Assembly (NCBI RefSeq): GCF_000421605.1
Contig: NZ_ATXI01000007.1
Location: 1-64,000 of the forward strand
Direction of reading: 5' to 3'
DNA: 64,000 nt
DNA from: Thermodesulfobacterium thermophilum DSM 1276
GTDB taxonomy: Bacteria > Desulfobacterota > Thermodesulfobacteria > Thermodesulfobacteriales > Thermodesulfobacteriaceae
Positions 287 through 61,438 of the stretch are shown here, one piece after another. How positions within the stretch are numbered: position 1 is the first letter of the stretch; every line of letters begins with the position of its first letter. Position numbers and translations under genes: made by a program. A model generated the notes under the pieces. It worked only from the letters and a program-made list of their open reading frames with translations, was not told the DNA's origin and did no database searches.

Positions 287-363
287 AGGCCAGTAGCTCA
301 ACTTGGCAGAGCGTCGGACTCCAAATCCGAAGGCTGGGGGTTCAAGTCCCTCCTGGCCTGCCA
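287..363 (+). tRNA. trnW: tRNA-Trp (anticodon CCA)
   Basis: A cloverleaf can be drawn: acceptor stem AGGCCAG with CTGGCCT, anticodon loop CTCCAAA giving anticodon CCA, a T arm containing GGTTCAAGTCC, discriminator G and an encoded CCA 3' end. It reads UGG. Its position between rpmG and secE is conserved in many bacteria. A CCA anticodon does not predict efficient reading of UGA, which matters for the in-frame UGA in the cytochrome gene at 57045. Confidence 0.96.
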
Positions 364-42131: not shown

Positions 42132-43275
42132 ATGAAAACAGCAGCTCAAGTTTATAAAAACATAGACTTAGAAAAAATGCTAAACTACTTTTCTGAACAA
42201 CTTCAAGATTTAAGGGGGTGCCTTTGACCCTGATTCCATCAAAATACGCCTTTCTCAGATAGAAGAAATTTTTCAAAATAACGACATCGATTGGGAATCA
42301 CCTTCTATTAAGAATCTTCTTAAAGAGCGTGCAAGCCTGATAGAAAGATTAAACCTTTTTGAAGATTTAGAAAAAGATTTTCGAAATCTTTCTGAGTGGT
42401 ATGAACTCTACAAAGAGGAAAAAAGTCCAGATTACTTAGAAATCCTTTTTGAAGAGATAGAACAGTTTGAAAAAAAACTAAAAAAAGAAGAAAGCAAGCT
42501 CCTTCTTTCCGATGAGTATGACTATTCTTCTGCTATTTTAAGCATCCATGCTGGTACAGGAGGGACAGACGCGCAGGACTGGGCTTATATGTTGCTAAAG
42601 ATGTATGTTAAGTGGGCTGAAAAAAAAGGATTTTCGGTAAAATTGGTAGACAGCCTTCCTGGAGAAGAGGCAGGTATAAAAAACGCGGTAGTTTTAGTAG
42701 AGGGTCCTTGGGCTTACGGATATCTTAAAGGAGAAAAAGGTGTTCATAGGTTGGTAAGGATTTCGCCTTTTGACGCCAACGCAAGGAGACATACCTCTTT
42801 TGCTTCGGTAACGGTGATTCCTGAAATAGAGGAAAACATAGAAGTGGAAATAAGGCCCGAAGACTTGAGGATCGAAACCATGAGGGCAGGAGGTCATGGA
42901 GGTCAGCATGTAAACAAAACAGAAAGTGCGGTTAGAATTACTCACATCCCTACAGGGATAGTTGTTACTTGCCAAAATGAGAGAAGCCAACATCTTAACA
43001 AGGCCATAGCTTTGAAGATATTAAAATCAAGGTTATATCAATTAGAAAAGCAGAAACTTGAACAGAAAAAAGAAAGCCTGATCGGAGAGAAAAAAGAGAT
43101 AGGTTGGGGCAATCAAATAAGAAGTTATATCTTACATCCCTACAGGGTGATTAAAGACCATCGTACCCAGTTAGAGGTTTTTAAGGTAGAAGATGTTTTA
43201 GACGGAGAGATAGACGACTTTATCCGAGAATATTTACTTTGGGATGCAAAACAAAGGCTTAACCATAAAAATTAA
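42132..43275 (+). CDS. prfB: Peptide chain release factor 2, programmed +1 frameshift
   Basis: Two frames join at CTT TGA C. The first 31 codons end at an in-frame TGA (42225-42227); shifting +1 gives GAC at 42226 and continues to 43275, for 380 residues in total. The AGGGGG upstream (42213-42218) matches the internal Shine-Dalgarno of known prfB shift sites. RF2 reads UGA and UAA, so low RF2 raises its own synthesis. The tRNA-mimic loop keeps GGQ but reads AGGHGGQHVNKTESAV, with His where SGAGGQ has Ala. UGA is therefore a stop in this organism. Confidence 0.95.
42213..42228 (+). promoter_or_regulatory. prfB recoding site
   Basis: AGGGGGTGCCTTTGAC contains the SD-like AGGGGG, the slippery CUU and the UGA followed by C, all in the conserved order. 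The spacing (AGGGGG, TGC, CTT, TGA) is that of the classic RF2 autoregulatory frameshift. Confidence 0.95.
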
Positions 43276-54534: not shown

Positions 54535-54930
54535 ATGGATAAAAAGAGACGAAACTTTTTAAGGCTTTTTTCTTTAGGTGTTTTGGGTTTTTTAACCTAT
54601 GGAGCTTTTAAAAACCTAACTAGTTTATCTTCTCCCCCACCTAAAAAGGTTATCGTTCTTTTTGAGGAGATAGAAAAAGCTAAAGATATACTTTTTAAAG
54701 AAAACTTTATTGTGATAAAAACAGGCTCTAATTTTAAAGTCTTTTCCAGGAAGTGTCCTCATTTAGGCTGTTTGCTTAACTATTCTCCTGAAGAGGATCT
54801 GATCGTCTGCCCCTGTCATCAAAGTAAGTTTAATCTTTCTGGAAAGTTTATCTCTGGACCTGCAAAAAAGGACCTTACTACATACAATTACAGACTTACT
54901 TCTCAGGGTTTAGAGGTTGAGGTTTTTTAG
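54535..54930 (+). CDS. Rieske iron-sulfur protein, membrane-anchored
   Basis: 131 residues. The N-terminus KKRRNFLRLFSLGVLGFLTYGAF is a Tat-like or uncleaved anchor with a membrane helix (about 9-24). The [2Fe-2S] cluster ligands are CPHLGC (about residue 75) and CPCHQS (about residue 93). It should take electrons from quinol in a bc-type complex with the cytochrome b encoded next (14-bp overlap) and pass them to the multihaem cytochrome. It is shorter than most Rieske proteins. Confidence 0.93.
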   Translation: MDKKRRNFLRLFSLGVLGFLTYGAFKNLTSLSSPPPKKVIVLFEEIEKAKDILFKENFIVIKTGSNFKVFSRKCPHLGCLLNYSPEEDLIVCPCHQSKFNLSGKFISGPAKKDLTTYNYRLTSQGLEVEVF

Positions 54931-55777
54931 CTTTCCCACCTCTCCTAAGCTCAACTTGTTTATAGCCAATCTCTGTTTGATAAGCCTTATAATCTCCATT
55001 TTATCTGGGATGGTGGTTAGTTATCATTACTTTTATACCGAACCTCTCTACAGCGTAATTCGGTTAGAGTCATCGGTGCCTTTTGGCAGGTTTTTTAGAA
55101 GCCTTCACTACTTTTCTTCTCAACTTGCTTTAATCTCAACTTTTTTCCATCTGATAGATAGCCTTTACAAAGGATGGCATCATAAAAAGAATTTTGTTGC
55201 CTGGTTGTTTTTGGTGTTAAGCTTTATCGTCCTTATTTTTATTACCTTTACCGGTTATGTGATAAGGTTTGATGAGGTAGGGAAGCTTGCAGGAACCATA
55301 GCTGAAAATCTTTGTTTAAGCATACCTTATGTAGGAGGAGTCTTAAGAGACCTTTTGTTCCCAATCTCTAAAGGAGGTCTTTATAGAGTTTATTTAGCCC
55401 ATATTTATGGTTCTTTTTTATTAGCCATAGGGCTTTTTGTTTGGCATGCCTCGATTAAACGGGTTTTAAGCCTTAAATATGCCCCTTATCTTTACCTAAA
55501 CCTGATTTTGCCTCTCATCTTTTATGTTCCTCTTGAGTCAGAGAAAGGGAAAACGATAGTTACTGGTCCATGGTTTTTTTGGGGAGCTCAGGGACTTTTA
55601 AAGTTTTTACCCCCTTTGGGAGTGCTTTTTTTACTTTTTTTAGCGGTTGTTTGGCTTATTCTTTTAGGTTTTAAGCCTGCAAGAAAGTTCAGCTCCTGGG
55701 TAGGTGGTATTTTAATATTATGGTTGTTAGTTTATGTTATTTTTAGTCTTATCATCTACAGAGATGCCCACACTTAA
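54917..55777 (+). CDS. Cytochrome b6-like subunit of a Rieske/cytb complex
   Basis: 286 residues from a TTG inside the Rieske gene. About seven or eight membrane helices. Haem ligands: LHYFSSQLALISTFFH in helix B (13 residues between the His pair) and AHIYGSFLLAIGLFVWH in helix D (14 between), the spacing of b6 rather than mitochondrial b. A GPWFFWGAQGLLKFLPP stretch sits where PEWY occurs in other cytochromes b. It should oxidise menaquinol at the inner membrane. The multihaem cytochrome gene begins before its stop. Confidence 0.9.
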   Translation: MRFFSFPTSPKLNLFIANLCLISLIISILSGMVVSYHYFYTEPLYSVIRLESSVPFGRFFRSLHYFSSQLALISTFFHLIDSLYKGWHHKKNFVAWLFLVLSFIVLIFITFTGYVIRFDEVGKLAGTIAENLCLSIPYVGGVLRDLLFPISKGGLYRVYLAHIYGSFLLAIGLFVWHASIKRVLSLKYAPYLYLNLILPLIFYVPLESEKGKTIVTGPWFFWGAQGLLKFLPPLGVLFLLFLAVVWLILLGFKPARKFSSWVGGILILWLLVYVIFSLIIYRDAHT

Positions 55778-57482
55778 ACGTTTAGCTAAGACTAAGTCAT
55801 TTTGGATTTTATTAGGATTAGTTATCTTACTCTGTTTGTTCTATTCTGAAGCTAAAAAAGATAGACGGGAGGTTGCTAAGTTAACCTCAGGTGAAGTAGA
55901 GTTATGTATTACTTGTCATCAGGAGGTAGTTCCTGAAAAGGTGCACGACAAAAAGGTCGTTGGTTGTTCTTCTTGTCATTTAGGGAATCCCTATACGTTA
56001 GACCTTAAAGAGGCCCATAAAAACATAGTAAAAAACCCCGGGGATCTGAGATATGTTAATCTTACCTGTGGACAACCAGGCTGTCATCCTACTGAGATAT
56101 CGAAGGTAAAAAATTCTCTTATGGCTACCAACCATGGAATGATAAAAAGAGTGGTTGAAGTTTTTGAAGAAAAAGAGGTTTTATCTTTATATCCTAAGTT
56201 GAGTGTGTCTCAACTTTATCAGAGTGAGGTTTATCATAAAACCCGAAACAGCTTAGGTTTAGACTATTACCGAAAACTTTGTGGCAGTTGTCATCTTTGG
56301 TTAGAAAAGGGAAAACTCCCCTATTTTCTGAAAGAAAAAGGAGGGGGATGTACTGCCTGTCATTTGGTAAAAGAGGAAGATGAGGGCCTCAATTCTTCTC
56401 GAAAAACCCATCCTAAACTGGTTAGATATCCTCCGATGGAAAACTGTGTAAGATGCCATAACCGAAGTGGGAGGATAGGTTTTACCTACCAAGGACTTTA
56501 TGAAAATGAGCAAGGAGGGGTAGGAGATGAAGTTTGGGTTGACGGAAGATGGTTAGATCGGGTTTCTCCTGACATTCATTTCCAAAAAGGGTTAAACTGC
56601 GTAGACTGCCATACTAAAGAAGAGGTGATGGGAGATGGGAATTTTTACTACAGTTTGCATGAGGCTTTAGAAATCGAGTGCCAAACCTGTCATGGAGGAG
56701 ATGGGACTACTAAAAAAGGAAGAAAACTAAAAAATTTTCAGAAAAAAGGGACTAAGGCTTATTTAGAAATAAAAGGTTCTAAAAAATTACTTTTAATCAA
56801 AAAACCGGTTAGAGTTTGCAGCCTTTCATATCATAAACGATTAACCTGTGTAAGTTGTCATGCCAAACATATGCCTGATTGTTACGGCTGTCATATCAAA
56901 TATGACCCAAGAGAGACCCATCTTGACAAAATACTTGCTAAGGAAACGAAGGGGCTTTGGATAGAGCATGAATCTTATAGAAGACTTGCACTTCCTACTT
57001 TAGCGGTGGAAGATAATCAAAGAGTGGTTACCGTTACCCCAGGCTGACAGGATTTTATCACCATCCTCTCAGAGAAAGGAGAGGTAAAAAAAGAAATAAC
57101 AAGCCTTACCTTTGCTAAACTGAACCCTCATAGCACAGGGAAACAGGGGCGTTCTTGTAAAAGTTGCCATCAAGACACAAAAACCTTAGGGTTAGGGTAT
57201 GGAAAGGTGGTAAAAGGTAAAAACTCTATAGAGGTTGTAAACTTAGAAAAACCTTTTCTAAAATCTCCGCGGGTTTGTCTTTCTCAGATGGTTACCCTTA
57301 ACGGAACTAAGCTGGTCAATTTTCCTCAGCCCAATCTTCGTCCTTTTTGTCAGGAGGAACTGGTAAAGATTTTAAGGGTGGGTTTTTGTCTAAACTGCCA
57401 TTCTGAAAAGGATAAGATTTTTAAAAAATGGCCTCCTAAAAGGGTTTGCCCTTATGCAAAAGAATTGAAAAGTAATTTCTAA
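55764..57482 (+). CDS. Membrane-anchored dodecahaem cytochrome c with an in-frame UGA
   Basis: The ATG at 55764 is chosen because the next residues form an anchor helix (FWILLGLVILLCLFY); an upstream in-frame ATG is less likely. The frame meets TGA at 57045-57047 (codon 428) but then stays open, in the same frame, to TAA at 57482, for about 572 residues. Before the TGA there are nine CX2CH motifs (such as CITCH, CSSCH, CGSCH, CTACH) and one CX4CH (CGQPGCH); after it come CKSCH and CLNCH, giving 12 haems if read through. The last gene of the Rieske operon, it should accept electrons from the cytochrome b. The UGA may be selenocysteine, a nonsense allele or a sequence error. Confidence 0.8.
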
Positions 57483-60961: not shown

Positions 60962-61438
60962 TTACCAGCTAAGCCCCACCACACTTCTTCCGGCTGCTTT
61001 GGTAAGTTCAGAAATACCACCATCAAGGACTATAGCTTTATACCCAAGCATGTTAAGAGGCAAACTGGCAGCAATCGCTCTGGCTCCGGTGTGGCAAACT
61101 ACCACGATTAATTTATCCTTAGGAAGTTTTTTAAGGTTTTCTTCTTTAAAAAGTTCATGCATCGGTATGTCTATCGTGTTAGGAAGGGAAATGCTAACAA
61201 ATTTTTTTTCTTGAGGAGTTCTTATGTCCAAAACCACAAAAGGTTCTTTTTTTTCAATCATCTCAAACAGATTTTTTACACTTATCATACAGGGTTTCTT
61301 AGCTATTACCTCTGGGGTAAGCTTAGAGAAAAAACTATCAAACTTTTTAGCAAGTTCTACATCATAACCCCAACCATGCTCTAAGTATCCAAGAAAAACC
61401 AACAAACCTATCGCAAATTTTTGCAAAATCCCTTTCAT
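60962..61438 (-). CDS. Exported rhodanese-domain protein
   Basis: 158 residues with a signal peptide (about 1-24, ending GWG). A single rhodanese domain (about 50-150) has VVLDIRTPQEKKF and the active-site loop VVCHTGARAI with the catalytic Cys. It should handle persulfide or thiosulfate sulfur in the periplasm, or bind sulfur for a partner. It is coupled to the radical SAM gene on the minus strand and 45 bp downstream of the DUF523 gene. Confidence 0.88.
   Translation of the reverse strand: MKGILQKFAIGLLVFLGYLEHGWGYDVELAKKFDSFFSKLTPEVIAKKPCMISVKNLFEMIEKKEPFVVLDIRTPQEKKFVSISLPNTIDIPMHELFKEENLKKLPKDKLIVVVCHTGARAIAASLPLNMLGYKAIVLDGGISELTKAAGRSVVGLSW

Follow-up and report, generated by a model that had tools for sequence, protein, structure and literature searches.

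Does the TGA that stands in frame at codon 428 of a multihaem cytochrome gene end its translation, or is it read as selenocysteine (Sec)? The gene lies in the first 64,000 nucleotides of a contig of Thermodesulfobacterium thermophilum DSM 1276 (the window; the whole assembly comprises 1.79 Mb in 46 contigs), and a sequence-only reading had offered it as either a selenocysteine candidate or a nonsense allele. It occupies 55764..57482 on the forward strand, from an ATG at 55764 (another in-frame ATG lies farther 5', at 55734) to a TAA at 57480-57482, and its 572 codons include the TGA at 57045-57047. Translated with TGA as U, it gives a protein of 572 amino acids with Sec as residue 428, in the motif VTPG-U-QDF. 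As had been claimed, 144 open codons follow the TGA in the same frame and encode two more haem motifs, CKSCH (codons 465-469, 57156..57170) and CLNCH (codons 542-546, 57387..57401), both also recognised in the alignment of homologues; the TGA is indeed one base from TGC or TGG. Translation and alignment together give eleven CxxCH motifs and one CX4CH motif (C102-H108), so that twelve haems are predicted, and the N-terminal helix (residues 3-32) looks like a membrane anchor. In BLAST, residues 48-555 align with Geobacter-type ExtM (30% identity, E = 6.5e-68). The NCBIfam ExtM model (NF040943) matches the protein at 307.9 bits; since the curated cut-off is 800 bits, this cytochrome is ExtM-like and not ExtM in the equivalog sense.

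A read-through search of 60 genomes yielded 30 long homologues at 45-95% identity, drawn from several genera and three families. Codon 428 is TGA in 29 of these, among them the copy of Thermodesulfobacterium hveragerdense DSM 12571 (95% identity), and TGC in the remaining one, from a metagenome-assembled genome of Caldimicrobium thiodismutans (L022, identical to L121). The wider family was collected by running a profile built from 19 homologues against 197 loci. All 180 rows that cover the site, duplicates included, have TGA (66) or TGC/TGT (114) there, and Trp never occurs; removal of identical stretches left 46 Sec and 107 Cys sequences. Six additional rows with F, Y or H at the site are partial matches to other cytochromes and have a different motif. 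The pair formed by Cys/Sec and the following Gln is invariant in all 180 rows. The QD subfamily, Geobacter-type ExtM and most of the remaining relatives keep PG(U/C)Q, and a few distant relatives with Cys have SPCQ or APCQ instead; the Geobacter-type ExtM proteins that exceed the NCBIfam cut-off (L048-L055) read VTPGCQTF. Sec forms are found in Thermodesulfobacterium, Thermosulfurimonas, Thermodesulfatator, Caldimicrobium and several further lineages of the phylum, and Cys forms in the Desulfobulbales, cable bacteria among them. It is because dozens of relatives either keep TGA at this position or have Cys there that the TGA is best read as Sec. Several of the genomes with a Sec ExtM-like gene also hold a Cys paralogue with the motif IPGCQVIFTQIG, which forms a separate clade (L100, L101, L107, L112-L115 and L077).

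A hairpin shortly past the TGA had also been pointed out, and its pairing was confirmed: CCTCTC (57065-57070) and GAGAGG (57079-57084) form a 6-bp stem around the 8-nt loop AGAGAAAG, giving a bacterial SECIS-type hairpin (57065..57084, forward strand) whose stem begins 17 nt past the TGA and whose second loop base is G. Taken by itself, the hairpin of this gene stands out only mildly from dinucleotide shuffles (z -1.6). The family-level test set each of the 46 Sec and 66 Cys genes against 150 synonymous recodings that followed the gene's own codon usage. From +12 to +38 the Sec genes have a mean folding energy of -8.97 kcal/mol where -4.97 was expected, an excess of stability (z -1.70), whereas the Cys sister genes have none (mean z -0.28); the two sets of z values differ with a Mann-Whitney p of 1.4e-9, related sequences being treated as independent. 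The same recodings revealed no excess folding in the Sec genes at +30..+60, +40..+70 or +60..+90. The signal was blurred in a broad 48-nt folding interval and resolved in shorter ones. A stem of 5-13 bp starting 8-19 nt past the TGA is found in all 46 Sec genes, and in 39 of them a G is the first or second loop base; in one subgroup of 14 sequences three of seven pairs have compensatory changes. The hairpin is of the bacterial SECIS type in its position and its loop G, and taken as a group the Sec genes have it and the Cys genes do not.

The means to decode such a codon are encoded in the genome. The suggested check for selA, selB, selC and selD found all four: selA, selB, tRNA-Sec (anticodon TCA) and selD are each over their curated cut-offs. 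An in-frame TGA also occurs within selD itself and within the alpha gene of a formate dehydrogenase. The one in selD (L198, C3:6179-7111) lies near locus position 1532 and precedes a strong inverted repeat, TTCCACAAGAGTTTCTTGTGGAA; the formate dehydrogenase gene is at C12:37887 (L204). Across the genomes checked, selA is present in 76 of 80, and selB exceeds its cut-off in 45 of the 46 that carry the cytochrome, the exception being a genome that is 76% complete. With the four Sec genes, a site that is only ever Cys or TGA, and a hairpin specific to Sec genes, the selenocysteine candidate is well supported, and we infer with high confidence that the protein has Sec at residue 428. SelB and tRNA-Sec would decode the UGA, directed by the hairpin downstream of it.

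In a tree of 122 rows, calculated with the site masked and rooted at the midpoint only, some of the deep branches being long, all 46 Sec rows form one clade in which two Cys rows (L022 and L084) are nested. The Sec/Cys label changes three times on this tree, against 37 times in shuffles. We read this history as one gain of Sec from Cys followed by two reversions. Both revertants' genomes are among those with selB; L022 retains the stem, a point against the Sec reading, and L084 is without a simple hairpin. These natural Sec/Cys pairs, the two reversions included, make the role of residue 428 directly testable.

The product would be a full-length, periplasmic, membrane-anchored, ExtM-like cytochrome with twelve haem-binding motifs, and its neighbours suggest where its electrons come from. 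Immediately upstream on the same strand, and in the same operon, is a Rieske iron-sulfur protein of 131 amino acids (54535..54930; NCBIfam Rieske models, E = 1e-11, below cut-off), followed by an ExtP-like cytochrome b of 286 amino acids (54917..55777; NCBIfam cytb_ExtP, E = 9e-23, 81 bits against a cut-off of 290). The cytochrome b gene overlaps both the Rieske gene upstream of it and the dodecahaem cytochrome gene downstream. The simplest reading is of a quinol-oxidising module that feeds a periplasmic 12-haem cytochrome; electrons would probably pass from menaquinol through cytochrome b and the Rieske protein to the dodecahaem cytochrome. This gene order is common to Thermodesulfobacterium, Thermosulfurimonas and Thermodesulfatator. 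Next to the copies in Caldimicrobium, and next to the Cys copies in the Desulfobulbales, neither the Rieske nor the cytochrome b gene was found, and so the electron donor may vary among relatives. Near the operon, the reverse strand (60962-61438) encodes a small rhodanese-like protein that seems to have a signal sequence; the Geobacter ext cluster includes a rhodanese-like protein, ExtH.

A first structure model, made with 19 sequences, was poor (pLDDT 43), and a second AlphaFold model, with 93 sequences, reached a pLDDT of 89.9. The latter puts residue 428 on a stretch rich in beta structure, flanked by the CxxCH motifs at 373 and 465. Searches with this model by Foldseek and VIA-align returned no similar solved structure, and a profile search of the PDB gave weak matches only, to cytochrome c nitrite reductases at residues ~256-324. 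Two more non-haem cysteines of the protein are conserved, C352 (codon 56817-56819) and C562 (57447-57449), and might be partners of Sec428. C562 is near-invariant among the homologues whose C-terminus is covered. All of the QD subfamily has C352, whereas Geobacter-type ExtM and other relatives have another residue there, mostly His; because Cys at 428 persists where C352 is replaced, the idea of C352 as an obligatory partner is weakened. Two copies of the same group (L119 and L120, genomes G005 and G002) lack part of the stretch that separates the last two haem motifs, at about residues 480-506 of the protein described here.

The selenol in the invariant PG(U/C)Q, a thiolate in the Cys relatives, would most likely serve as a redox-active or substrate-binding site, with an oxidised sulfur or selenium compound as an example of a possible substrate; this is the more conventional expectation, and carries about half of our confidence. 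Alternatively, the Sec or Cys side chain could be an axial haem ligand and not a catalytic nucleophile, a difference that concerns the role of the residue and not its insertion. Against twelve haem motifs there are only six invariant non-motif histidines (H61, H85, H216, H272, H357 and H456), so several haems may be without a conserved distal His, and with residue 428 itself invariant as Cys or Sec, a ligand role is possible even when Met120 and Met289 are counted as well. However, those two methionines and Lys171 are invariant and could be alternative ligands, and every sequence has non-conserved histidines too (the median is 12 non-motif histidines per sequence); we consider an axial-ligand role the less likely assignment, at perhaps half the weight of the redox or substrate site. 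More speculative still, and in our view unlikely, is that Sec ligates one of the twelve haems axially as a naturally occurring selenolate; such a haem might lie at the catalytic end of a respiratory complex that draws on quinol to reduce compounds of sulfur or selenium.

It is also conceivable that two products are made deliberately, a short form that stops at the UGA and a long Sec form, in a ratio set by selenium supply. The short form would retain ten of the twelve haem motifs, and partial termination at Sec UGA codons is usual in bacterial selenoproteins; but no conserved feature that favours the short form was found, and the Cys relatives produce the long form only, so that this seems improbable. 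Selection reaches past the TGA. In three pairs among the source genome, G006 and G013, dN/dS 3' of the TGA is 0.34, 0.14 and 0.10, and purifying selection of this kind indicates that the region encodes functional protein. A nonsense allele or sequencing error at codon 428, which the single-base distance from TGC or TGG would allow, is excluded for practical purposes by this selection and by the presence of TGA at the same codon across genera in independent assemblies. Equally negligible is the insertion of Trp or another standard amino acid, through reassignment or a near-cognate tRNA, for which the open frame is the one point in favour: relatives have Cys and never Trp, the genome holds the Sec machinery, and the tRNA-Trp of the window (287..363, forward strand) has, as had been pointed out, the anticodon CCA, with no hint of UGA-to-Trp reassignment. 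The window's prfB (42177..43275, forward strand), which had been cited as using UGA as a stop, begins with a programmed +1 frameshift site of the classical type (AGGGGG-TGC-CTT-TGA-C, within 42177-42230, its in-frame TGA at 42225-42227); this is consistent with UGA being a stop signal for release factor 2. An annotation that ended at the UGA would lose the last quarter of the Sec ExtM-like proteins.

Multihaem cytochromes with predicted Sec have been described before. ExtKL (GSU2937-2936; NF040886) was predicted to be a selenoprotein in 2007 (PMC1914089), and its cluster, which likewise includes a Rieske protein and a cytochrome b, has been linked to selenite and tellurite reduction (PMC5877670). 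A 2026 catalogue of 119 prokaryotic selenoprotein families, said to include those of a 2025 paper (PMC12013261), lists ExtKL and a cytochrome of the octahaem tetrathionate-reductase family (PMC13188914). The sequence-only reading had considered a selenoprotein among the haem cytochromes notable in itself; the Sec insertion behind that statement is supported, and the statement itself is somewhat too strong, since ExtKL had already been predicted. Sec in ExtM is absent from the 119 families of the catalogue (PMC13188914), and may have been mentioned elsewhere in the literature. The present protein resembles the octahaem cytochrome in being a multihaem cytochrome with Sec, and the NCBIfam model for that family (TIGR04315) gave no match to it up to an E value of 10. 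An identity with ExtKL was rejected: NF040886 is matched neither by the cytochrome at E values up to 10 nor anywhere in the genome. ExtKL also differs in having five haems and an unrelated Sec context (HSIPDG-U-PTP in L048).

The nearest Cys sister group consists of the ExtM homologues of Desulfobulbales and cable bacteria (PMC11976967), at about 40-46% identity and with the motif VTPGCQD; unlike the Sec genes, these have on average no SECIS-like hairpin, and no adjacent Rieske or cytochrome b gene was found. To ExtM of the Geobacter ext cluster the likeness is one of full-length homology, twelve haem motifs, the invariant PG(C/U)Q and a Rieske protein and ExtP-like cytochrome b nearby. The differences are Sec here and Cys there, a score of 308 bits against the cut-off of 800, and another gene order. 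No cluster of the extHIJKLMNOPQS type is present at the locus, where the Rieske and cytochrome b genes are the only such neighbours, and ExtKL is missing from the genome. A single invariant thiol or selenol is marked as the key residue of the ExtM family, a poorly understood group known from Geobacter, cable bacteria and sulfur disproportionators, and the Sec ExtM-like form adds a well-supported selenoprotein family to the respiratory multihaem cytochromes. In the Geobacter-type operon L048 (G102), the UGA is in the five-haem ExtKL-like protein and the next gene is an ExtM with Cys, whereas in the lineage studied here the UGA is in the ExtM-like protein; the two related systems thus have their Sec in different proteins.
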